A stretch of 64,000 nt of DNA from an uncultured Nitrospirales bacterium (GTDB taxonomy: Bacteria; Nitrospirota; Nitrospiria; Nitrospirales; UBA8639): positions 2,079,001 through 2,143,000 of the forward strand of contig OY282373.1 in NCBI GenBank assembly GCA_958295805.1. Reading direction: 5' to 3'. Under the pieces are notes generated by a model. The model saw nothing but the letters and a program-made list of their open reading frames with translations. It was not told the origin of the DNA and searched no databases. The translations under genes were made by a program, and so were the position numbers. Below are positions 11,827 through 34,200 of the stretch, one piece after another (positions within the stretch are counted from its first letter, which is position 1; each line of letters starts with the position of its first letter).

Positions 11827-12021
11827 GAACCTCTCCTTTCACGCAACGGCAATGATGGTACTGAACCAGGAACGGCATTCGGCAAACTGTAGCACAAATC
11901 GAAAAGAAATAGCTTAAAATTTCGACCCTCTTCACAAGAAACCTTCGCAACACGCCATTCCGAGCGTAGCAAGGAAAAAGAATGAGCAAGGTGTCCAATA
12001 CTCTCCACTCCCACAAAAAAA
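11827..12021. other. floA leader and AT-richer spacer
   Basis: This 195-bp stretch holds no supportable gene. It carries the presumed floA 5' region and ends in an A run directly before the first GC-rich array element. Confidence 0.6.
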
Positions 12022-12311
12022 TCACTCCCCCCTTGAGGGGGAGTCGGCAAAACAAGGGCGGAGCCCGCCGGAGAGCCGGTGGGGGGACCCCTCCACCCCA
12101 TGCCCCCAACCGCCCCTCCACCCCGCCGCAGCCCCTGCCCAAACGCCAAAGGCCGCCTCTGGCACGGCCGGTGCTGCTAGCATCCCGACCTCGTCGAAAA
12201 CGGCGCCGGGGGCCTTCAACTCCTCGCCAAAGCCGACACAAACCACCCCCCACCGCTGCCGCCGGCGCCGGACGGCTTGCCGGCACCGACTCCCCCTCAA
12301 GGGGGGAGTCA
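12022..12311. mobile_element. MITE-like element, copy 1 (290 bp)
   Basis: The left end is 12,022-12,047 and the inverted right end 12,286-12,311. The interior is GC-rich and encodes nothing recognisable. Confidence 0.65.
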
Positions 12312-12386
12312 TTGGAGGATAAAGCTGTTCCAGAAAGTTATGTTTACGCCACTACACAAACAGGAATGGTTCAAAACCACAAAAAA

Positions 12387-12675
12387 TCACTCCCCCCTTG
12401 AGGGGGAGTCGGCGAAACAAGGGCGAAGCCCGCCGGTGAGCCGGTGGGGGGACCGCTCCGCCCCATGCCCTCAACCGCCGCTCCACCCCGCCGCAGCCCC
12501 TGCCCGAACGCCGACGGCCGCCTCTGGCACGGCCGGTGCTGCTGGCACCCCGACCACGTCGCGAACGGCGCCGGGGCCTTCAGCGCCTCGCCGAGGCCGA
12601 CACGGACTACCCCCCACCGCTGCCGCCGGCGCCTAGCGGCTTGCCGGCACCGACTCCCCCTCAAGGGGGGAGTCA
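12387..12675. mobile_element. MITE-like element, copy 2 (289 bp)
   Basis: The left end begins at 12,387 and the inverted right end is 12,650-12,675. It differs from copy 1 mainly by point changes in the interior. Confidence 0.65.
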
Positions 12676-12750
12676 TTGGAGGATAAAGCTGTTCCAGAAA
12701 GTTATGTTTACGCCACTACCACAAACCGGCATTTTCAAAGCCATAAAAAA

Positions 12751-13037
12751 TCACTCCCCCCTTGAGGGGGAGTCGGCGAAACAAGGGCGAAGCCCGCCGG
12801 CGAGCCGGTGGGGGGACCGCTCCACCCCATGCCCCCAACCGCCCCTCCACCCCGCCGCAGCCCCCGCCCAAACGCCAAAGGCCGCCGGCACAGCCGGCGC
12901 TGCTAGCATCCCGACCGCGTCAAAAACGGCGCCGGGAGCCTTCAACTCCTCGCCAAAGCCGACACAAACCACCCCCCACCGCTGCCGCCGGCGCCGGACG
13001 GCTTGGCGGCACCGACTCCCCCTCAAGGGGGGAGTCA
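12751..13037. mobile_element. MITE-like element, copy 3 (287 bp)
   Basis: The left end begins at 12,751 and the inverted right end is 13,012-13,037. The interior is closest to copy 1. Confidence 0.65.
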
Positions 13038-13112
13038 TTGGAGGATAAAGCTGTTCCAGGAAGTTGTGTTTACGCCACTACCACAAACCGGCATTTTCAA
13101 AACCATAAAAAA

Positions 13113-13377
13113 TCACTCCCCCCTTGAGGGGAAGTCGGCGAAACAAGGGCGAAGCCCGCCGGCAAGCCGGTGGGGGGACCGCTCCACCCCGCCGCAGCCC
13201 CTGCCCGAACGCCGACGGCCGTTTCTGGCACGGCCGGTACTGCTGGCATCCCGACCGCGTCGAGAACGGCGTCGGGGGCCTTCAGCGCCTCGCCAGAACC
13301 GGCACGGACTACCCCCCACCGATGCCGCCGGCGCCGGGCGGCTTGGCGGCAACGACTCCCCCTCAAGGGGGGAGTGA
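13113..13377. mobile_element. MITE-like element, copy 4 (265 bp, internal deletion)
   Basis: The left end carries a G-to-A change in the loop-distal arm (GGGGAAGTC). About 20 bp around the CCATGCCCCCAACC segment of the other copies are missing. The right end finishes GGAGTGATT instead of GGAGTCATT, so this copy is the most degraded. Confidence 0.65.
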
Positions 13378-13419
13378 TTGGAGGTAGGACGGCATTGACT
13401 ATCGCAAGTCCCTGGCTAT

Positions 13420-19450: not shown

Positions 19451-20580
19451 CTACCACTGCCAGCCCAGGCGAACCGAGACGCCGTGCGCGGTTTTCTGCC
19501 CGGGCTGTTCTGCCCGTTCACCCTCAAGGGTCACGTCCAGCAACCCACTCAACGCCACACGGCTCCCCAGCCGACAGCGGGACGTCCCGGCCCTCGCCAG
19601 CGCCAGGCCGCCATACGGAGTCAGCCGCCCCCCGTCCGCTAACGCCAAGCCGTAGCCCACGTCCACTTCCAAACTGCCCGGCTGCCAGCCAGCGGCGGGT
19701 CTCGATGTGCTGCTCCCTTGCGGCAACACCGGGGCCGTGCCCCAGAGTTGCTCCACCCCGCTGGCCGCTTGCCCCCACACCGGCGACACACTCAGATACG
19801 CCCCGGCCCCCGCGGCCCCCGGATCCAGCCGCACGTTCACACTCGCCCCCCAGTCCTCAAACGCCCCGTCCTCGTGCAGCAGCAGATACCGCCCCTGCGC
19901 CTCTACCCTCAGGCCCCAATCCGTCCGCGTGTACGCCACCCCACCGCCCAGTTCCGCCCCAAGCCCCTGCTCCGCGGTGCCGCTGTCCCACCGTCCCCCA
20001 AGCTCCAGGCGCGGCTCCAGCCGCGACCCCGCCGAAAGCCCCACCGCGGTCCGGCCTTCCACCAGCAACCGCACCCGCTCCGCGTGTCCCCGCGCCCCCG
20101 GCACATGTGTCTTGCCCTCCGACCGCACCGTCGTCAGAAACGCATCCGTCTTCGCCGCCAAGTCAATCCCCTGCCACGTGGTCAGGGCCTGCCGCCCGCC
20201 CACGGCTCCCAGCCATGAGGTCAGGTCCGTGCTCCACGTCTGAGCGTCACCCACCACCTTGATACCCAAGTCACCCCAGCCCATGCCCAGCAACCCCCAG
20301 ACGCCCAACCCGGCGTAGGGCTTCCAGTGCGCATACGGCAGCACGCTCATCAGTTCCACGTCCACGTTGGCCTTGGTGGCCCCGATGCGCTCATACTCCA
20401 CGTCGCCGGTGCTGTGCGCGACGGCCAGACCGAGCAGCAGGGACGAGCGCGGCCGGTAGTCGAGGCCCAGGTAGCCGCTGTAGAGCCTACCGTCCATCCT
20501 GAAGTCATCTTCGGGCTGACCGGAGAAGCCGCTGGCGGAGCCCCGGCCCCACAAAGTCCAGGCGGGCACACCGTCTTTGC
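19451..20580 (-). other. Autotransporter-like beta-barrel domain of surface protein 1
   Basis: About 375 residues of alternating amphipathic strands begin near ASGFSGQPEDDFRMDGRLYS and include GLAVAHSTGDVEYER, RLEPRLELGGRWDSGTAEQG and YGGLALARAGTSR. The chain ends in an aromatic residue (GWQW), as required by the barrel assembly machinery. It is very similar along its whole length to the barrel at 30,083-31,210. Confidence 0.85.
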
Positions 20581-23500
20581 CGATGCGGGTCAGCGGGAGT
20601 TCGAAGGCGCTGCGGGCCAGGAGGTCTTTGCCCGAGACAGTCTGGAAGCGTAGGGATTGCCCGGGGGAGGCCCGGCTGAGGGCGTTGGGTGGGAAGGGAG
20701 CACGAATGCTCTCCTCACCTTGGAGAAGAATCCCCTCACCCTGACCGCTCCCAGGGGGAGAGGGGGAAGGAGAAGAGGGAGTTTCCAGGGCTAAGCCTAG
20801 GGCTCGGGCGACGCCGATAGCCAAGCCCGTGGCTCGCTGCCAGGGGCTTGGGTTGGACCCGGCATCGCGACGGACGCTGCCGGAGCCTGTATCTGGGAGA
20901 AGAGGTTCTTCACCCCGGGGAAGAGACCCCTCACCCCTGCCCTCTCCCTCAAGGGGAGAGGGAGTAGGAGGCACCCGTCCTGCAACCATCCCACGCAAGA
21001 CCCTGCCCTCGCCCTCAAGGGGAGAGGGAGTAGGAGGCACCCGTCCTGCAACCATCCCACGCAAGACCCTGCCCTCTCCCTCAAGGGGAGAGGGAGTAGG
21101 AGGCCCCCGTCTTGCAACCGTCCCACGCAAGACCTTGCCCTCTCCCTCAAGGGGAGAGGGAGTAGGGGGCACCCGTCTTGCAACCGTCCCACGCAAAACC
21201 CTGCCCTCTCCCTCAAGGGGAGAGGGAGTAGGAGGCACCCGTCTTGCAACCGGCCCGCGCAAGACCCTGCCCTCGCCCTTAAGGGGAGAGGGAGTAGGAG
21301 GCACCCGTCCTGCAACCGTCCCGCGCAAGACCCTGCCCTCGCCCTTAAGGGGAGAGGGAGTAGGAGGCCCCCGTCTTGCAACCGCCCCACGCAAGACCCT
21401 GCCCTCTCCCTCAAGGGGAGAGGGAGTAGGAGGCACCCGTCTTGCAACCGTCCCACGCAAGACCTTGCCCTCTCCCTCAAGGGGAGAGGGAGTAGGAGGC
21501 ACCCGTCTTGCAACCGGCCCGCGCAAGACCTTGCCCTCTCCCTCAAGGGGAGAGGGAGTAGGAGAGGGAGCCGAAGCCTGAGGCTCGGTGAGGCGGAGGA
21601 CTTGGCCGCCGAGGGTGACTTGCAGGCGGGACGCCGGGGTGCTGAAGCGGCCGCCGAGGATCTCTACGGCATCCGCGGCCAGGGTGCGGCCTACCCCGGC
21701 CAGCACCAGTCCCAAATCCCGGCTATAAATCGACGACGTGACTTCAAGGGTGAAGGGCAGCCGCGCCGTGTCCCCGTCCTCGTCCCATGCCGTCCACGTG
21801 TACATCGTTCGCGCCTGGACCCTGGTCGGGGTGCCGGACAAGGTACGCGTATCCGCGTCAAACGTCAGCCCCTGGGGCAGGGTCGGCGACGTCAGGGCAT
21901 ACGTGAGCGTGCCGTCCCCACCCTTGGCCTCCGGCAAGGTCAGGGGCGTGATCGTCGTCGCCACCGAGTAGTTTTGCGCGGGCACCACTGCGTCCCCGAA
22001 CGTCGGCACCAGGTCCGGCATCACTTCAATGGTAAAGTCCATCTCCCCCATCTCCCCGTCTCTGTCTTCCGCGGTGAGTGTGTAGGCGGTCTTGGGCAAG
22101 GCTTCCGTCGGCGTCCCGGTGAGCACCCCGCCGGATCTGTCCACTGGCTCAGGCGGCGTGTACGTCAGACCGGCCGGCAACTCCGGGGACAACCGGTAGG
22201 TGACCGGCTGGCTGCCCCCTGCATAAGGGAAGGTCAGAGGGACGATCTCCTTGTTCTGCACGTAGCGCGGTTCCAGCTTCAACTCCCTGTTGAATCTGGG
22301 GTAGTTCGGTAACACCGTGACGACGAAGGGCAGGTTCGCCACGTCCCCGTCTCCATCTTCCACGTCCAGCATGTAGGTGCCTTCGATCTCAACCGTGACC
22401 GGTATGCCGGTGATACGGCCGCCGTGAGTCTCCGCGCCATCGGGCGAGGAGTAGCTCAGCCCGGCCGGCAGTTCCCGCATCGTATAGCTGAGCGGACTGT
22501 CACCGCCCATGGCCGCGGGCAGGGTCTGCGCGGGTATCTCCATGTATTGCTCGAAAGAGAAGGGACCCTGCACCACGCGAAACGACGGCGCCGGCTCCAC
22601 GACGATGGTGAAACCCGCTGACGAGGCGGTGTCTCCATCCTCGTCCCCCACCATCAGAGAGAGGTCGAACGAGCCCGCCTCCGTCGGCGCGCCGGAGATC
22701 GCACCGCCTTGATCTTCTGCGCTGCCTGGTTGGGTATACGTCAGACCCTTCGGCAGACCCGGCAGCGCATAGGTCAAACGTCCGTTGCCGCCCGTGGCCG
22801 CGGGCAGGACGAGGGGAGCAATGCTCTTCCACTGCGTGTACCCGGCCCCTGGAACAGGCACCACCGTGCCGGGGGGAAACGCCGGACTCTGGTCCATCTG
22901 CACCTCCATGGTGAAGGCCAACGTAGCGGCGTCGGCGTCCGCGTCAGTGGCCGTCAGCGTATAGGTGGCCACCCCGCGCGCCGCGGTCGGCGTACCGAAG
23001 ATGCGGCCGGCCGGGATCGCGGCGTTCCGCTCGTAACTCAGTCCGACGGGCAGGTCAGGCGTTCCGTCCGCCCTTGCCGGGGTCAGCGCGTAGGTCAACG
23101 GCGCGTTGCCGCCTCTCGCCCTCGGGAGGGAGTAGTTCACCGTCGTCTTTTGCGTGACGTAGAGCTGGTCTGGAACCCGCGCATGGCTGAAGTCCGGCAT
23201 CGGATCCCCGCTCACCGCAATGGTGAAGTCCAGCGTTGCCGCGTCGCCGTCCGCGTCCGTCGCCGTCAGCGTGTAGGTAGCCGCGTCCTGGGCCGCTTGC
23301 GGCGTGCCGGTGATGGTGCCGCCGTGATGGTCCGCGGGGGCCGGCGGGGTGTGCGTCAGACCCGCGGGCAGGTTCGGCAGCGCGTAGACAAGGATCCCGT
23401 CCCCGCCCTGCGCCTCCGGCAGGGTCAGCGTGGAGATGGCCGAGCCTTGCATGTACGTTTGTGGCTGAACCGCGGCGGTGCTGAAACTCACCGTCTGATT

Positions 23501-26500
23501 CGCAACCACGCGGATGATGACGTCCAGCGTCGCGACGTCGCCGTCCGAGTCCGTCGCCGCGTAGGTGTACACGGTTGCCGCGGTCTCCACGCTCGGCGTG
23601 CCGGAGATCCGCCGCGTGGCCGCCTCGAACGTCAGTCCCGCGGGCAGAGCCGCGCCGCCCGGCCCTTGCAGCGAGTAGGTGAGCGGCGGATTGCCGCCAG
23701 TGGCCGCGAGCAGTTCCACGTATGCCATCGCCGGACTGCCGACCGCGGCGCCCCGCTTGTAGCGTTGCGCCTGGACCGTTCCACTGAACCGCGGGGTCAC
23801 GTTCGTCTTGACCCCGATGCTGAAGGTCAGCGTACCCGCGTCGCTCGCGCTCGTATCAACGTCCGAGTCGTGCACCGTGTACGTGTACGTCTGCGCCGCC
23901 TGCGACGTGGACGGCGTACCGGACAGCAGGCGGGTCGTCGCGTCGAAGTTCAGCCCGTCCGGGAGTGTACCCGCCAAGCTGTAGCTCAACCCGCCGTTGC
24001 CGCCCGTGGCCACGGGCAAAGAGAGCGTCACGGCCTTGCCCGTCCGGTAGTCCTGATGATCCACCGTCGCGGCGCCAAAATCCGGCGCGCGCATCATTTC
24101 GTTTTCGGTCACCGCCACCGCCACGGGATCGGCGGTGGTCAACGTGCCGTAGCCGCTCACCGCGTGGCTCAACGTCGCCGCGTCCAGGTCGGCGTCGTCG
24201 TCCTCCGCGGCGAGTACCGTCACGGTCTGCGCGGCGTTGTAGTCGCTCACGCTGAAGGTCAGCGACAGATTCTGCGCCGCGGCCCGTGACCCGGACTGCA
24301 CGGTGACCTCGCCGTTGTTGCTGGCAACGCGCACCGTCGCGGTCCCGGTCGGCTGCGTAGCCAGCACCACCGTGTACGTGGCGCTGCCGCCCTCGACCAC
24401 GGTCAGGTTGGTCGGGCTGACGGTGACGCCCAGGGTCTCGTCGTCATCCACCGTCACCGCCACGGGAAGGGCGGAAATCACGGTGCCGTAACCGCTCACC
24501 GCGTGGCTCAGCGTCGCCGCGTCGTCCTCACCGTCGTTATCCGACCCTGCGCTTACCGTCACGGTCTGCGCCGTGCTCCAATCCATCGTGCTGAAGGTCA
24601 GCGCGGAGGAGACGGTGACGTCGGTGCTGCCACCGGTTCGGGATGGGGTAACCGTCACGGCTCCGGTCGGCTGCGTGGCCAGCACCACCGTGTAGAGAGC
24701 CGAACTGCCTTCGTCCACGATCAAGTGGGTCGGCGTGACCGTCACGCCCGCCACGTTGTCCTCAATCACCGTGACCATCACGTTGGACGCCGTCACCGTG
24801 CCGTAGCCGTTGACCGCGTGTCCGATAGTGGCCACCCGTCCGCCCGTGGCGCCCACGTCTCGCGCCGCGCTCACCGTCACGGGCTGCGGCGTGTTCCAGT
24901 TCGTCGTCGTGAAGGTCAGCGCGGAGGAGACGGTGACGTCGGTGCTGCCGCTGGTTCGGGATGGGGTGATCGTCACGGCTCCGGTCGGCTGCGTGGCCAG
25001 CACCACCGTGTACGTCACGGATTGACCTTCGGTCACGTCCAGCGAGGTTGGCGTGACCGTCACACCCGGCACGTCGGCGTCGCTCACCGCCACCGTCACG
25101 TTCGACGCGGTCACCGTGCCGTAGCCGTTGACCGCGTGGCTCAGCGTCGCCGCGTCCGCCTCGCCGTCCGCGTCCCGGACCGCCCGCACCGTCACGGTCT
25201 GTCGCGTGGCCCAGGTGCCGGGCGTGAACGTCAGCGGCGAGGGGGTCGCGGTGACGTCCCCGTTGTCGCTTTCCAAGGTGATGGTCACGGTGCCCGCGGG
25301 CGGCGTGGTCATCACCACGGTGTACGTGGCGCTGCTCCCCTCGGCAAACGACAGGTTCATCGGGTTGACGCGGACCTCGGCGCGCCGCACCTCCGCGGTG
25401 AACGTCCGGGTCGCCGCGTCGCCGTCCACGTCCGTCGCGGTCAGCGTGTACGTCCGCACCGCGGTCACCCGCGTGGGCGTGCCGCCGATGACGCGGGTCG
25501 TCCGGTCGAACAACAGGCCCGCGGGCAACGCCGGCGTCAGCGCGTAGCGCAGGCTGCCGTCTCCGCCGGTGGCCGCGGGCAGGCTCTCGTTCACCGCCCA
25601 ACCCACTGCATACACACGATCGTCCGGCGTCAGGCTGAAAGACGGCTGGGCGTCGGTGGACCGCAAAGCAAACGTCAGCGTATCCTCGTCCCCGTCCCCG
25701 TCCGTGGCCGTCAGCGTGTACGTGGTCCACCCCTTGGCCGCGGCCGGACGGCCGGCAATCACGCCGCCGGTGGTCGTGTTCGTGGGAGGGCTATAGCTCA
25801 GGCCCCCAGGCAGATCCGGCTGCCCGTCCGAGCGGGTCGGGGTCAGCGTGTAGGTCAGTCCCGCTTCTCCACCAGTGGCCGCGGGCAGCGTGAGCGTCAC
25901 GAGAGTCACGGGCGTGACGGTCCGGTCGGACACCGTCGCACTGCCGAAGTCCGGCACGGTCTGCGTGCCGCGCACCTTGTGTCCCGCCTGATCGGCCACG
26001 GCGGCGTGCGTCAGCAGCGCGCCGGGAAGCGACGCGTCCGTGGAGTAGCGGAACGTGCCGGACAGCGCGTTGCCGCCGATGCTGATCCCGTTCGTATCCC
26101 GGTCCGCGGCGGTCACCGTGTAGTTGAAGTCCACGTAGGCGCGTGCGCTGCCGTCGTGCGTCGCGGTCAGCGTGCGTGTACGGCTGCCGACGACCACGTC
26201 CAACTCGGCGTTTTCGAACGAAACGACGTTGCGGTTGAAGTTCGCCCGCACCGTGATGACGTCCCCCGCGGTGTAATACCCCACCGCCCCCGGACTGGAC
26301 GTGACGCTTAGCCCGGTCAGCACCGCCCGGGAGGAAACCTGGAGATAGAAGACGTACACATCGCCGACGTTGCGCGAGTCCCGGGCCGTCAACTCGTAGG
26401 TATCGTTGGCCAGCAGCCGGGTCGGGGTGCCGGTGATGGTGCCGCCGTGTGCGTCTCCGTCGGCGGGAGGGGTATACGTCAACTCCGTGCCGATGGTGGT

Positions 26501-28009
26501 CAGGACGGTGCGGGGAAAGGACCGGGCCAGCGTGTAGGTCAACGCGCCAACGCCCGCGGAGATCGCCCCCGGCAACTGCACGTTGACCGGCACGTGCTGG
26601 TAGAAGGTGTATTGAATGGACGCCCGGTTGCCGAAGGTCACCGGCACGCCGGTCGCCTTGTGGCCCGAAGCGTTGGTGATGGTGAAGCCGGGGAGGCCGT
26701 AGTACGTGTCTCCCAGAGGCGCCGTCCGATTCGACGGGAAGACGCCGACGATGCCCCCAGCGCCGATCTTGACCAACCGCTGCACGCTGATGCCGTCGGT
26801 ATCGATGTCGTTCAACTGCACCGTGTAGCTGAAGACGAGTTTCCGCGTGTTGTTGCCCGAGGTGTAGGTGAACTGGCGGGTGGCGCTGCCGACCTCAACC
26901 TGAAGAGCCGCCAACGGAATGGTCAACCCCAGAAACACGCTGCCCAACATTTGGGCCGACCGGTTGAAGGAGACCTCCACCGCAATGGTTTCGCCGGCCG
27001 CGTACACGTCGCGGACCCGCGGGCGGCTGGTAATACGCACCCCGGTCACGTGGAACGATTCCTCCACCGTCAGGGTGAAGGATAGCTCGGCCGCCCGGCG
27101 CTGGTTCGACGTCCGCAGCGTATAGGTGGTCCTGGGCGACGCGACGGTGGGCACGCCGGAGATGACCGGCGGGGAAGTAATCAGGGGCTGGCTGAGACGG
27201 ACGCCGGCCGGCAGGGACGGCGACACCTCGTACTGATAGTGCAGGAACCCGCCGGCCCGGGCCGTGGGCAGGGTGGCCTGGTTGACCCCGCTGGCGGCGA
27301 TGACCGGCGCGTCCTTGTAGAACACCAGGTCTGGCCCCGTGCGCAGACGGCGGCCCACGTCGTCAAGGAAGATCGGCCGGTAGCGGCCGTTGACCTTGCG
27401 GCTCCCGCCTCCGATGATGACTCTATCCAGTCCCTCTCGCTGGCGGAGGTGTGGGTCCAGCCCGGAGGCATGAACGGGGAGTCCTCTATCGCCTTCACGA
27501 TAAGGATTATAGGATCCTCCACCGGCCTCGCAGGCGTAATACCTGCCGTGCAGCGCGTCTTTATCAATGTTGAAACCGTCGTCGTCCCGGTCGTTGGTCT
27601 GCACCACGTACTTGAAATCGATGAAGCCCCACTGCGAAGTCTGAGCGGCAAAATTGATCAACGGGAGCGCCCGGCGGATCGTTCCTCCGATGTCGAGTTC
27701 CAGATAGGCGTTCTGCGCTTCGCACATCCTGGCGTCGCCTTGGAGTGGGCCGACGTGCTGCGCGTCCACCCAGCGTATCCGCACCGTGATGGTCTCGCCG
27801 GTAAGGTAATAGCCGTCGTTCCCCGCCTCCGGATTGCTCACGACGCTGACGGAGTGGATTTGATGGGTGATCGACGCCGCGGCCGGCCGCGGGGCGAGCA
27901 CCAGCCACACGACATCAAGCATGGCCAAGGCCAAGAAGCCGATGAGCAACCGAACAGGACAGAACCATCCATGCCTCCCCTCGTCGCCGTCCCCGTGCTT
28001 GAATACCAT
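19451..28009 (-). CDS. Giant autotransporter-like surface protein 1: Ig-like/Calx-beta modules plus C-terminal beta-barrel
   Basis: This protein of 2,852 residues starts at ATG 28,009 (MVFKHGDGDEG), because a signal peptide follows at once (VRLLIGFLALAMLDVVWLVL, cleavage near AAA). The open frame continues upstream only through hairpin repeats. Order: N-terminal modules with TGETITVR and DRDTDGISI (27.86-25.95 kb); putative-Ig (He_PIG-like) modules with LPAGL...GTPT...YTLTATD (25.9-25.4 kb); Calx-beta-like modules with WNTAQTVTV (25.4-24.1 kb); further He_PIG-like modules (24.1-21.74 kb); a conserved hinge (SRDLGLVLAGVGRTLA); a 22-residue repeat linker (21.58-20.94 kb); and a barrel of about 370 residues ending SVRLGWQW (20.56-19.45 kb). 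It is probably Sec-exported and displayed on the outer membrane as an adhesin. Acidic DGD motifs suggest calcium binding. Function is inferred from architecture. Confidence 0.85.
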   Translation of the reverse strand: MVFKHGDGDEGRHGWFCPVRLLIGFLALAMLDVVWLVLAPRPAAASITHQIHSVSVVSNPEAGNDGYYLTGETITVRIRWVDAQHVGPLQGDARMCEAQNAYLELDIGGTIRRALPLINFAAQTSQWGFIDFKYVVQTNDRDDDGFNIDKDALHGRYYACEAGGGSYNPYREGDRGLPVHASGLDPHLRQREGLDRVIIGGGSRKVNGRYRPIFLDDVGRRLRTGPDLVFYKDAPVIAASGVNQATLPTARAGGFLHYQYEVSPSLPAGVRLSQPLITSPPVISGVPTVASPRTTYTLRTSNQRRAAELSFTLTVEESFHVTGVRITSRPRVRDVYAAGETIAVEVSFNRSAQMLGSVFLGLTIPLAALQVEVGSATRQFTYTSGNNTRKLVFSYTVQLNDIDTDGISVQRLVKIGAGGIVGVFPSNRTAPLGDTYYGLPGFTITNASGHKATGVPVTFGNRASIQYTFYQHVPVNVQLPGAISAGVGALTYTLARSFPRTVLTTIGTELTYTPPADGDAHGGTITGTPTRLLANDTYELTARDSRNVGDVYVFYLQVSSRAVLTGLSVTSSPGAVGYYTAGDVITVRANFNRNVVSFENAELDVVVGSRTRTLTATHDGSARAYVDFNYTVTAADRDTNGISIGGNALSGTFRYSTDASLPGALLTHAAVADQAGHKVRGTQTVPDFGSATVSDRTVTPVTLVTLTLPAATGGEAGLTYTLTPTRSDGQPDLPGGLSYSPPTNTTTGGVIAGRPAAAKGWTTYTLTATDGDGDEDTLTFALRSTDAQPSFSLTPDDRVYAVGWAVNESLPAATGGDGSLRYALTPALPAGLLFDRTTRVIGGTPTRVTAVRTYTLTATDVDGDAATRTFTAEVRRAEVRVNPMNLSFAEGSSATYTVVMTTPPAGTVTITLESDNGDVTATPSPLTFTPGTWATRQTVTVRAVRDADGEADAATLSHAVNGYGTVTASNVTVAVSDADVPGVTVTPTSLDVTEGQSVTYTVVLATQPTGAVTITPSRTSGSTDVTVSSALTFTTTNWNTPQPVTVSAARDVGATGGRVATIGHAVNGYGTVTASNVMVTVIEDNVAGVTVTPTHLIVDEGSSALYTVVLATQPTGAVTVTPSRTGGSTDVTVSSALTFSTMDWSTAQTVTVSAGSDNDGEDDAATLSHAVSGYGTVISALPVAVTVDDDETLGVTVSPTNLTVVEGGSATYTVVLATQPTGTATVRVASNNGEVTVQSGSRAAAQNLSLTFSVSDYNAAQTVTVLAAEDDDADLDAATLSHAVSGYGTLTTADPVAVAVTENEMMRAPDFGAATVDHQDYRTGKAVTLSLPVATGGNGGLSYSLAGTLPDGLNFDATTRLLSGTPSTSQAAQTYTYTVHDSDVDTSASDAGTLTFSIGVKTNVTPRFSGTVQAQRYKRGAAVGSPAMAYVELLAATGGNPPLTYSLQGPGGAALPAGLTFEAATRRISGTPSVETAATVYTYAATDSDGDVATLDVIIRVVANQTVSFSTAAVQPQTYMQGSAISTLTLPEAQGGDGILVYALPNLPAGLTHTPPAPADHHGGTITGTPQAAQDAATYTLTATDADGDAATLDFTIAVSGDPMPDFSHARVPDQLYVTQKTTVNYSLPRARGGNAPLTYALTPARADGTPDLPVGLSYERNAAIPAGRIFGTPTAARGVATYTLTATDADADAATLAFTMEVQMDQSPAFPPGTVVPVPGAGYTQWKSIAPLVLPAATGGNGRLTYALPGLPKGLTYTQPGSAEDQGGAISGAPTEAGSFDLSLMVGDEDGDTASSAGFTIVVEPAPSFRVVQGPFSFEQYMEIPAQTLPAAMGGDSPLSYTMRELPAGLSYSSPDGAETHGGRITGIPVTVEIEGTYMLDVEDGDGDVANLPFVVTVLPNYPRFNRELKLEPRYVQNKEIVPLTFPYAGGSQPVTYRLSPELPAGLTYTPPEPVDRSGGVLTGTPTEALPKTAYTLTAEDRDGEMGEMDFTIEVMPDLVPTFGDAVVPAQNYSVATTITPLTLPEAKGGDGTLTYALTSPTLPQGLTFDADTRTLSGTPTRVQARTMYTWTAWDEDGDTARLPFTLEVTSSIYSRDLGLVLAGVGRTLAADAVEILGGRFSTPASRLQVTLGGQVLRLTEPQASAPSPTPSPLEGEGKVLRGPVARRVPPTPSPLEGEGKVLRGTVARRVPPTPSPLEGEGRVLRGAVARRGPPTPSPLKGEGRVLRGTVAGRVPPTPSPLKGEGRVLRGPVARRVPPTPSPLEGEGRVLRGTVARRVPPTPSPLEGEGKVLRGTVARRGPPTPSPLEGEGRVLRGMVAGRVPPTPSPLEGEGRVLRGMVAGRVPPTPSPLEGEGRGEGSLPRGEEPLLPDTGSGSVRRDAGSNPSPWQRATGLAIGVARALGLALETPSSPSPSPPGSGQGEGILLQGEESIRAPFPPNALSRASPGQSLRFQTVSGKDLLARSAFELPLTRIGKDGVPAWTLWGRGSASGFSGQPEDDFRMDGRLYSGYLGLDYRPRSSLLLGLAVAHSTGDVEYERIGATKANVDVELMSVLPYAHWKPYAGLGVWGLLGMGWGDLGIKVVGDAQTWSTDLTSWLGAVGGRQALTTWQGIDLAAKTDAFLTTVRSEGKTHVPGARGHAERVRLLVEGRTAVGLSAGSRLEPRLELGGRWDSGTAEQGLGAELGGGVAYTRTDWGLRVEAQGRYLLLHEDGAFEDWGASVNVRLDPGAAGAGAYLSVSPVWGQAASGVEQLWGTAPVLPQGSSTSRPAAGWQPGSLEVDVGYGLALADGGRLTPYGGLALARAGTSRCRLGSRVALSGLLDVTLEGERAEQPGQKTAHGVSVRLGWQW
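20935..21563 (-). repeat. In-frame 66-bp tandem repeat, nine full units plus a partial, coding a Pro/Arg linker
   Basis: The intergenic CCCTCTCC-type palindrome recurs at 20,941, 21,007, 21,073, 21,139, 21,205, 21,271, 21,337, 21,403, 21,469 and 21,535, an exact 66-bp period. Each unit encodes 22 residues beginning TPSPL(E/K)GEG, then VLRG and VA(R/G)R. The repeat joins the hinge to the barrel. Units vary only by point changes, so the array is young. Confidence 0.93.
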
Positions 28010-28129
28010 TGCTTCACGTCTCTTTTTTCTCCCCGCCCCCCTCTCCCCTTCCGGGAGAATGCCGGGATAAGGGAAACGGGGTGAGGGAAAAGAATGATTA
28101 TACCTACTCCACCCCGACCAGAACGAGTA

Positions 28130-30060
28130 AATACCAATTTCTCTCCCGCCCCGCCCCCATCCTCCTCCCTCTCCCCTTGCGGGAGAGGGGCGGGGTGAGG
28201 GGAAGAAATGCCCGCACGCAATCCTCTGCCCCACGCCTCCGGCGTCATACCAGTGCAACCGAAAAGCCAGATTCTTCCCTTCGCTCGGAATGACAGAGGA
28301 GGGAAAAATGGCGGCGGAGGGCGGAATGGCGGAGGACACGCCATACACATGCACGGCATCAGCCCTGGCTCCCCGATAACAAATGGCGGGGACAGGTTTC
28401 GCGGAAATGACAGACCACAGGCCACTAGCCATACGTCCATGGATTCTCGCGCGCGGGACAGTGGTGGCGGCATGAGATGCCGCCCTACGACCGGTGGATT
28501 CCCACATGCGTGGGAATGACCCACGCACACCGCCAGGCAACCGAATCGAAGCCCCTGGATTCCCGCGGGCGCGAGAATGACGGAAAGGGAATTCACCATG
28601 GCGGGAAAGCCCTCTTCCTCCCCGATCCCCCATCCTCCTCCCTCTCCCCTTGCGGGAGAGGGCCGGGGTGAGGGGAAGAAATGCCCGCACGCAACCCTCT
28701 GCCCCACGCCTCCGGCATCATGCCCGGGCAACCGGAAAGCCAGATTCTTCCCTTCGAAGCTCAAGGCAGGCGCTTCGCTCAAAATGACAGACCACAGGCC
28801 ACTAGCCATACGTCCATGGATTCTCGCGCGCGGGACAGTGGTGGCGGCATGAGATGCCGCCCTACGACCGGTGGATTCCCACATGCGTGGGAATGACCCA
28901 CGCACACCGCCAGGCAACCGAATCGAAGCCCCTGGATTCCCGCGGGCGCGAGAATGACGGAAGGGGAATTCACCATGGCGGGAAAGCCCCCTTCCTCCCC
29001 GCTCCCCTTCTTTCTCCCTCTCCCCTTGCGGGAGAGGGGCGGGGTGAGGGGAAGAAATGCCCGCACGCAACCCTCTGCCCCACGCCTCCGGCATCATGCC
29101 CGGGCAACCGGAAAGCCAGATTCTTCCCTTCGAAGCTCAAGGCAGGCGCTTCGCTCAGAATGACAGAGGAGGGAAAAATGACGGCGGAGGGCGGAAGGAC
29201 GGAGGACACGCCATACACATGCACGGCATCAGCCCTAGATTCCCGCTCCCCGATAACAAATGGCGGGGACAGGTTTCGCGGAAATGACAGACCACAGGCC
29301 ACTATCCATACGTCCATGGATTCTCGCGTGCGCGGGACAGTGGTGGCGGCATGAGATGCCGCCCTACGACTGTGAATCCACATTCCCACATGCGTGGGAA
29401 TGACCTACGCACACCGCCAGGCAACCGAATCGAAGCCCCTGGATTCCCGCGGGCGCGAGAATGACGGAAAGGGGATTCACCATGACGAGAAAGCCCCCTT
29501 CCTCCCCGACCCCCTTCTTTCTCCCTCTCCCCTTGCGGGAGAGGGGCGGGGTGAGGGGAAGAAATGCCCGCACTCAATCCTCTGCCCCACGCCTCCGGCA
29601 TCATGCCCGTGCAACCGGAAAGTCAGATTCTTCCCTTCGAAGCTCAGGGCAGGCGCTTCGCTCAGAATGACGGCGGAAGGCAGAATGGCGGAGGACACGC
29701 CATACACATGCACGGCATCAGCCCTAGATTCCCGCTCCCCGATAACAAATGTCGGGGACAGGTTTCGCGGAAATGACAGACCACAGGCCACTATCCATAC
29801 GTCCATGGATTCTCGCGTGCGCGGGACAGTGGTGGCGGCATGAGATGCCGCCCTACGACCGGTGGATTCCCACATGCGTGGGAATGACCCACGCACACCG
29901 CCAGGCAACCGAATCGAAGCCCCTGGATTCCCGCGGGCGCGAGAATGACGGAAAGGGAATTCACCATGGCGGGAAAGCCCTCTTCCTCCCCGATCCCCCA
30001 TCCTCCTCCCTCTCCCCTTGCGGGAGAGGGCCGGGGTGAGGGGGCTCGGGGGGTGAGGGG
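28130..30060. repeat. Array of concatenated hairpin repeats between the two giant genes (five units)
   Basis: The same composite unit as at 18.4-19.4 kb recurs, with CCCTCTCC palindromes at 28,167, 28,640, 29,016, 29,523 and 30,008 (spacings 473, 376, 507 and 485). The 376-bp unit lacks the block from the GGAGGGAAAAATGGCGG segment to the CGATAACAAATGGCGG segment. Point differences are few, so units are recently amplified or homogenised. It lies downstream of gene 2 and upstream of gene 1. No gene in this 2 kb is supported. A gene-1 promoter should lie here or in 28,010-28,130 but none is clear. Confidence 0.87.
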
Positions 30061-31210: not shown

Positions 31211-34200
31211 GCCGGCGCGGGTCAAGGGCAACTCAAAGGCACTGCGGGCCAGCAGGTCTCTGCCCGAGACGGGCTGGATGCGGAAGGGGGATTGCCAATC
31301 CCTCGGGCCTCTGAAGGTGTCGGTTGGAGTGGACGCCATGATGGACCCCTCACCCCGGAGAAGACCCCCCTCACCCTGGCCCTCTCCCGCAAGGGGAGAG
31401 GGAGAATGAGGAGGAGGAGTGTTGATGGCGACGCCTAGGGCGCGGGCCACGCCGATGGCCAAGCCGGTGGCTCGTTGCCAGGGGCTGGGGCCCCCGGCGG
31501 GGCGGGCGGCGGACTCTTGGGCTTCACTTTGGAGAAGACTCCCTTCACCCCGGAGAACTCCCCCCTCACCCTGGAGAATTCCCCCCTCACCCCGGCCCTC
31601 TCCCGCTAGGGGAGAGGGGGAAGGAGAAGAGGGGGAGGGAGGAGCGGACGCCGCCGGCGCGGTGAGGCGGAGGACTTGGCCGCCTAGGGTGATTTGCAGG
31701 CGGGACGCTGGGGGGCCGAAACGGTTGCCGAGAATCTCGACGGCGTCCGTGGCCAAGGTGCGGCCGACGCCGGCCAGGACCAGGGCCAAGTCCCGGCTCT
31801 GAATGCCGGGTTTGACTTCGATGGTGATCGTAATGCTCACCTTTTCCCGGTCCACGTCCGTCGCGGTCAGCGTGTACTCCCGCTGGTCCGTGGGCGTCGT
31901 CGGCGTGCCGGTGATCGTCCCGCCGTGCTCCGCCCCGGTCTTCGGTTGCTCGTAGGTCAACCCGGCCGGCAGCGGCAGGGTGATCGGCGTCAACTCGTAG
32001 GTGATTGTCCCGTCCCCCGTAGCCCCCGGCAGGTCGCCCGCGCCGTCGCGCACCGCCTGGCCCGTCGGGAACGTCCACGACCGTTTCGCGTTCTTCCCGT
32101 CCGTCTTGAAGGCCACTTCCTTCCCCCCGTCCATCGCCACCACAAACGGGGAGAAGTCCAGCAACTTGGTACAGAGCATCGTGACCGGGTCCGCCCGGTC
32201 CGCCACGTCCTTCACGTCCGCCCTGATCTCCCACTCGCCGTTCTGGTTCTGATGCAGGAGGTACAAGTTCCTGCGTAACCGCACCGCCTCGTCCCACAAC
32301 GCCTGACTCACCGGCAGACAAATGGTCAGGCCATCGTCCCCCAGCACCTTGGCGCGGTTGGCGGCGGTGAGGGGGCTGCCAGCGGACGTCACCGTGATGT
32401 CCACCGCCGTGCGAGCCATCGGCTGCTCGAAGCTGCCCAGGAAGAACCGGCCCCTGTCCGGTATCTGAATATTTGGATCCCCCTCATACAGCCGAATCAC
32501 CACCTCAATGGCCCCATCCGTCTCGGCCGACGGGGTCACCGTCACCGCCGGCGTTGCCTCCGCTCTCGTCGCCGTCACCGTCACCCTGTGCTCATTGATC
32601 GTGGTGTCATCACCCGCCCGTAGCGTGGGCGGCGTATCCTTGTCGATCACGGTCACAGTCACGGCGGCGGACAGCGACGCATAACTGGTATCGAGACTGC
32701 TGACCGTGTGCGTCAGCGTGACCGTCTCGTTCTGGTAGTCGGTCTCGGGGTCCCTGCCCGCCTTCACCGTCACCGGCTGCGCCGTGGCCCAGTTGCCATC
32801 CGTGAACGTCAGGGTGATCGGGGCGACCATCACCGCGTCGGGGTGGCCCTTCACCACCGTCACCGTGACCGTCACCGTGACGGCCACCGTCGGCTGCGTC
32901 GCCAGCCGCACCGTGTACGGCTTCATGTCCGCCGGGTCCGTCGTCCTCTCCTCCAGCGCCAACACGGTCGGGGTAATCTCCAGACCCGGGGTGTCGTCGT
33001 CCGTGATCGTCAGCGTCACGGCATCAGGGTCATCCACGTTGTTGCCGCCCGTCGCCATGGCCGAGACCGTCACCTGCTTGTTGTCCGGCGAATACATGTC
33101 GTTGTTCTTCGCCGTGATCGTCACCAGCCCCGTACTCGTCGTCGCTCCCGCCGCAATGGTCAGGGTCGTCCCGCTCCTCGTGAAGTCACCCGCCATCGCC
33201 AGGGGCACGGCCGTCGCATCCACCGTGAGCGTCACCGCCTCACTTGACGGATGCGAGAGCGTCGCCGTCACCGTCGATACGCCGCCGTTCTCCGAGACCG
33301 ACGCCGGGTTCAGCGCCAGCGTCACATCCGGCTGCGCGTCGTCGTCCGTGATCGTCAGCGTCACGGTGGCCGAGGCGTCCACGTCACCGCCCGTCGCCAT
33401 GGCCGAGACCGTCACCTCCTTGTTGTCCGGCGAATACACGTCGTTGTCCACCGCCCGGAGCGTGACCGTGCCCGTGCTCGTCGTCGCCCCCGCCGCAATG
33501 GTCAGCGTCTCCCCGCTCTGCGTGTAGTCCTCCGCCACCGCCGGGGCCACCGCCGTGGCCGACACCGACAGCGTCACCTCGGCATTCAACGGATGCGACA
33601 GCCGCGCCGTCACCGTCGTCACCCCGTTCGCCTCATCAATCGACGGCGGCGTCAACACCAGCGTCGCCGTCGGCGTCTCGTTGTCCGTGATCGTGCCGGT
33701 GCCGGTCGCAGGAGAAATCGGCGTGCCCACCGGAGTCGGATTGCTGAGGGTCACCTGGATTGTCTCAGTCCCTTCGGTCAAGGTATCGCCCGTAATCGAC
33801 ACCGTGATCGTCTTGCTGGCGTCGCCCGCCGCAAACGTCAGCGTGCCGCCGGTGATGGCTGTGTAGTCAGTGCCCGACGTTGCCGCCCCGGCCCCGGCGG
33901 TCGTTGCATCGGCGTAGTCTACCGTCACCTGCTGATAGCTGGCCGGACTCAGCGACACCGTGAACGTCATGTTCAGAGAACCGGTGTCGCCTTCCGTCAC
34001 GGTCGGCGAGTCAATCGACAGCGTCGGCGTCTCGTCGTCCGTGATCGTGCCGGTGCCACTCGCGGTCGCAATCGTCGAGCCCGTTGATGCGCTACTCAGC
34101 GTCACCACCACCGTTTCGTCCGCCTCGTCCGTCGTGTCGCCTATCACGGCAACGGTGATCGGCTTGCTGGTCTCGCCCGCAGCAAACGTCAGCGTGCCGC

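Follow-up and report, generated by a model that had tools for sequence, protein, structure and literature searches.

The P1 locus

The window, by which we mean the whole 64,000-nucleotide stretch analysed, comes from an uncultured Nitrospirales bacterium (genome G000), whose genome of 2,904,372 bp is a single contig. The locus described here is P1, a giant adhesin-type gene with a tandem array in its linker. The features are, by window position:

19451-28690, minus strand: intact giant adhesin-type open reading frame P1 (3079 aa), with a signal-peptide-like N-terminus, Ig-like repeats, a linker and a C-terminal autotransporter barrel
19454-20653, minus strand: C-terminal 400-aa beta-barrel, scoring 36.9 bits against Pfam PF03797 (Autotransporter), above the cut-off of 26
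20969-21562, minus strand: nine complete 66-bp (22-codon) units at linker site A, from the array and unit comparison
20940-21556, minus strand: ten in-frame palindromes CCCTCTCCC-loop-GGGAGAGGG, seven perfect and three with one stem mismatch
20940-20962, minus strand: tenth palindrome, with a paralog-type tail, from comparison with the paralogs
20732-20767, minus strand: site B of the P1 linker, a second, diverged in-frame copy (PSPSPPGSGQGEG), from comparison with P2-P9
19393-19415, minus strand: palindrome shortly past the P1 stop codon, at the same position in P1-P9, a terminator-like or REP-like place
28167-30030, plus strand: block of longer intergenic repeats, situated between P1 and P3 and containing five further palindrome copies
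30083-63982, minus strand: neighbouring paralog P3, with the same barrel (85% identity), running off the window

The longest open reading frame of P1 begins within upstream repeats. Judging from the translation, the true start is likely the ATG at 28009, followed by the signal-peptide-like segment. The passenger contains ten He_PIG (PF05345) Ig-like stretches. By the criterion of a C-terminal PF03797 domain, P1 is an autotransporter (type Va-like), and PF03797 was also matched by 11 of the 15 barrel homologs scanned. A search by sequence profile gave no relative with a solved structure. An AlphaFold2 model built from just three sequences was nearly all-beta, with a pLDDT of 42, and is unreliable. 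The array lies between the Ig-like repeats and the barrel, and the PF03797 match agrees with the first-pass annotation, which had placed the linker between passenger and barrel. As a separate observation, the open frame of P3 (window 30083-64000) exceeds 13,000 codons and contains many internal repeats of 330-360 bp.

The 66-bp array

Tandem Repeats Finder (TRF) reported a 66-bp array at 20935-21564 with 9.5 copies, 94% matches and 0% indels. On the minus strand it holds ten palindromes of the form CCCTCTCC(C)-loop-GGGAGAGGG, separated by nine intervals of exactly 66 nt each and all in codon phase 0 of P1. The earlier statements that ten palindromes recur in frame with an exact 66-bp period, and that this period is a multiple of three, were therefore correct. 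Their description as ten hairpins needs qualification: there are ten copies, but three have an uncompensated stem mismatch (GGCGAGGG), and as each unit consists of 23 bp of palindrome and 43 bp of other sequence, the palindrome proper makes up just about a third of the array.

Each of the nine complete units codes for a PTPSPLEGEGRVLRGTVARRVP-like 22-mer, summarized as PTPSPL(E/K)GEG(R/K)VLRG(T/P/A/M)VA(R/G)R(V/G)P. The units differ among themselves at 9 codons, and some variants are common to distant units (2 with 7, 1 with 5). The tenth palindrome runs on into a different tail (RGEGSLPRGEEP; continuing CAGGGGTGAGGGG...). Since the same tail follows the palindrome in the paralogs and between genes, the tenth copy is probably the founder of the array.

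The 43-bp part of each unit contains an inverted repeat of its own, GTCTTGC...GCAAGAC. A search that allowed up to 3 mismatches found this spacer at no other place in its own genome and in none of 13 congeners. Its source was absent from the viral contigs searched, and the repeat peptide had no match in the plasmids searched. The 66-bp unit is confined to P1. Because the unit is stop-free in four of six frames, openness is weak evidence of coding; the array is taken as coding from the conserved, in-frame barrel behind it.

A REP-like palindrome in the genome and the phylum

The window contains 43 matches to CCCTCTCC, where 3.2 are expected, and none of 100 shuffles reached this number. Genome-wide there are 115 palindrome copies (at most 2 mismatches), against 0 for a reversed-pattern control. 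From 81 oriented copies the consensus is CCCCTCACCCC(C/T)GGCCCTCTCCC-GCAA-GGGGAGAGGGAG, and we regard the palindrome as a high-copy, REP-like element with a consensus of about CCCCTCACCCCGGCCCTCTCCCGCAAGGGGAGAGGGAG. Assignment to the GTAG/CGTC class of REPs was rejected, as each tag lies within 12 nt of the stem in just 1 of the 81 oriented copies.

In a survey of 126 palindromes, which covered the stretches read around copies, 77 lay outside any frame open for 60 codons both ways, and the remainder were mostly in adhesin linkers. Under a stricter pattern, 55 of 296 genomes from the phylum contained the palindrome. G000 encodes one PF01797 (RAYT-like Y1) protein, with no palindrome within 1.5 kb; genome G004 has one such protein with three palindromes nearby. 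Among 44 palindromes surveyed in G004 there were a few candidate open reading frames, none a clear in-frame insert. Neither a target-site duplication nor a transposase has been established for the palindrome.

In-frame copies in unrelated genes

The palindrome occurs in frame in several unrelated genes, namely the adhesin linkers, rsmB, a NirA-type reductase and, as a candidate, a membrane protein. The inserts lie in either orientation and are read in more than one frame. In rsmB (TIGR00563, 344 bits), two in-frame palindromes at G000:C1:164639-164702 add SSPHPDPLPPGEREEGGNPTLSQWEREKGG directly before the FDRILVD-PCSG catalytic motif; the insert is absent from all 11 congeners examined. In the NirA-family reductase, one in-frame copy at G000:C1:447778 adds about 17 residues (ISPSPLEGDGRVRGTKR) to the linker joining the two halves of the protein, and all 12 congeners compared lack it. 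The candidate in-frame palindrome in the large membrane protein (G000:C1:800104; RESPSPQPSPVEGEGEGVG) has no homolog in the congeners for comparison.

History of the linker among barrel paralogs

The barrel gave 14 matches in its own genome, one copy being split in two pieces, and it is present in all 13 congeners; a survey of 49 genomes placed it in no other genus of the family. In another genome collection, the sole relatives found were two copies, 42% identical, from uncultured Candidatus Entotheonella. Given these relatives and the lack of the barrel in the family's other genera, a transfer between lineages is possible.

In the barrel tree, P1-P9 form one group, P10 and P13 fall just outside it, and P11 and P12 lie further out. 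The place of P13 (G000:C1:2526697-2527897) is unsure, this copy being broken by five in-frame stops and then a frame change. Linkers were delimited from the conserved VTLGGQVLRL to the barrel. Those of P11 (63 aa) and P13 (70 aa) are without a palindrome, and that of P10 (79 aa) has a single degenerate one at site B (YPSPLTGEASVRG). In the linkers of P2-P9 (106-138 aa), sites A and B each hold one palindrome, in a shared frame and orientation (SPSPLAGEGRGEG); in P3 these are at 31380-31402 and 31596-31618, unexpanded. The P1 linker measures 312 aa, with the array at site A and the diverged copy at site B. The array was seen solely in P1, one of the nine close paralogs.

Sites A and B are common to P1-P9 by descent, so the number of independent insertions into linkers is small. 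The palindrome is younger than the linker itself, because relatives have linkers of 63-79 aa that lack it (P11, P13) or hold a single degenerate copy (P10). The simplest order is site B, then site A, then the array. None of the congener linkers read carries the same palindrome. Together, the insert-free paralogs and congeners bear out the earlier claim that an intergenic palindrome had become coding sequence. The further claim that the repeat had made the linker was right in part: the array expanded a linker that predates the palindrome.

Comparison with known systems

E. coli-type BIME-2 elements consist of a palindrome and a spacer in tandem and are extragenic. The P1 array resembles them in its tandem palindrome and spacer but differs in being coding.

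The nearest parallels include the Rickettsia palindromic elements (RPE), described by Ogata et al. 2000 and reviewed in PMC2229807; RPE-like elements in Wolbachia and Methanocaldococcus are also cited in PMC2996958. As with RPE, a palindrome of many copies lies in frame in unrelated conserved genes that have insert-free homologs (PMC2229807), and the copies occur in both orientations and in different frames. The element described here is shorter (about 23-38 bp versus 105-146 bp for RPE), is GC-rich and comes from another lineage, and one insert has been tandemly amplified to about 210 codons. The parallel is drawn from behaviour, our element being set beside the published RPE families by description. 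The feature is thus an RPE-like in-frame palindromic element with tandem amplification added.

Intragenic REPs (PMC3733652) are likewise palindromes of 20-40 bp, mostly outside and downstream of genes with some within open reading frames, and their clusters are reiterated together with flanking DNA. In Thauera and R. conorii, such clusters code for 43-82 aa (PMC3733652). The P1 array differs in having no GTAG/CGTC tag, in being longer and strictly periodic, and in its giant autotransporter host. PARCEL repeats (DUF285; PMC2996958) share the tandem in-frame arrangement, the dyad symmetry in the DNA and the occurrence in surface proteins, but theirs is an amphipathic domain of 25 residues spread between species (PMC2996958), whereas the unit here has 22 residues rich in Pro/Arg/Gly. 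Identity with PARCEL was rejected, given the 22-residue period, the lack of a DUF285 match and the restriction of the 66-bp unit to one gene.

Proposed origin of the array

We consider it quite probable that the P1 linker array was built by an in-frame palindromic element followed by tandem amplification. The REP-like palindrome would insert mostly between genes, and also in frame where extra residues are tolerated. In the autotransporter family it would have entered the flexible passenger-to-barrel linker stepwise, at site B and then at site A, both entries predating the family's recent expansion to nine copies. In P1 only, a 66-bp segment comprising the palindrome and the 43-bp second hairpin would then have multiplied into nine units in tandem, either through slippage or through unequal recombination between direct repeats. 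The product of roughly 210 codons is predicted to be a disordered Pro/Arg/Gly spacer that may hold the passenger further from the barrel, and it would be tolerated rather than finely selected.

Read in this way, one genome outside Rickettsia preserves successive stages in the conversion of intergenic repeat DNA into protein: an empty linker, a linker with one degenerate insert, linkers with two inserts, and one with two of which one is expanded ninefold. This record also includes independent insertions into household genes whose homologs lack the insert. The passage from noncoding repeat to protein, and the distinction between inserts that are tolerated and those later put to use, are now open to direct test.

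Constraint on the units and alternative explanations

The pN/pS among the nine units is 0.81, a value based on 11 variant codons that gene conversion between units could distort. For the barrel it is 0.28-0.34 between P1 and its paralogs and 0.25 with all pairs pooled. The unit variants comprise seven nonsynonymous and four synonymous changes, where the sites predict 2.3 to 1. From this ratio and these counts, the unit sequence looks nearly unconstrained, a pattern consistent with a spacer that is flexible and tolerated. The comparison of substitutions among units, suggested in the first-pass annotation, thus speaks for such a spacer and against protein constraint on the units.

These values also bear on the earlier proposal of a length-variable surface switch, in which unit number changes often in the population, alters the reach of the passenger and is under selection. 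The exact period and the high identity of the units make slippage or recombination likely, the variants common to distant units suggest that rearrangement has recurred, paralogs differ in the length of their linkers (106-138 aa versus 312 aa), and a congener (G006) has an array of its own at the same kind of position. Nevertheless, gain or loss of 66 bp cannot turn the gene on or off, the unit peptides look unconstrained, and since just one of nine close paralogs has the array, the family does not maintain it as a device. We therefore judge the switch unlikely.

Somewhat less probable still is that the array acts as DNA or RNA, through hairpins that slow transcription, termination, or BIME-like binding of gyrase or IHF, with the peptide as a by-product. 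Seven of the ten palindromes are perfect, each unit has its second inverted repeat, and in P1-P9 the stop codon is followed by related palindromes. Against this, a strong attenuator ahead of the barrel would block secretion. There is also no indication that a hairpin function has been retained, because three of the ten stems are mismatched without compensation and the unit folds no better than its shuffles (z -1.1).

An assembly artefact or a spurious open reading frame would be very improbable: such repeats do assemble poorly and the unit is open in four of six frames, but the genome is one contig, the units differ at 9 codons, the frame continues into a conserved barrel under purifying selection, and the tenth copy and its tail match the paralogs. 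That the array is an ordinary coding tandem repeat with a chance likeness to the intergenic palindrome is hardly credible, even though the 43-bp spacer is no known repeat, given 23 bp of identity to many genomic copies, no match for the reversed-pattern control and eight paralogs with an unexpanded copy at the corresponding site.

Tandem amplification elsewhere and linkers of other species

Amplification of the kind we propose for the P1 linker is general around these palindromes, since noncoding arrays that adjoin unexpanded copies carry a palindrome in every unit: one of 110 bp x 4.8 (L046 4269-4798), and two of 2.4 copies each with periods of 109 bp and 102 bp (L047 2133-2388 and 8260-8501). 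On reading, the 110-bp unit also proved to repeat the final codons and stop of the barrel gene. In coding DNA, survival of such arrays would be limited to multiples of three.

The orthologous linker of another species, G011 (G011:C8:114948-115066), contains two CCCGCTCCC-CTGG-CGGGAGCGGG palindromes 66 bp apart, together with a copy of another interspersed repeat (GAGCCCTGAGCTTGTCGAAGGG) that has 9 copies in G011 and 0 in G000. The array in G006 is a coding one of 72 bp x 3 just upstream of the barrel (C31, L073 1945-2162). From these sequences, the linker looks like a place that tolerates repeats again and again. Autotransporter linkers might even draw repeatedly on palindromic repeats as raw material: the same linker would have been colonised separately in two species by the CCCTCTCC and CCCGCTCCC types, with tandem amplification then tuning passenger reach in the population; we regard this broader idea as doubtful. 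Elsewhere in the window, at 12016-13384, there is an intergenic 364-bp tandem repeat of 3.8 copies with CTCCCCCCTTGAGGGGGAG hairpins at the unit ends.
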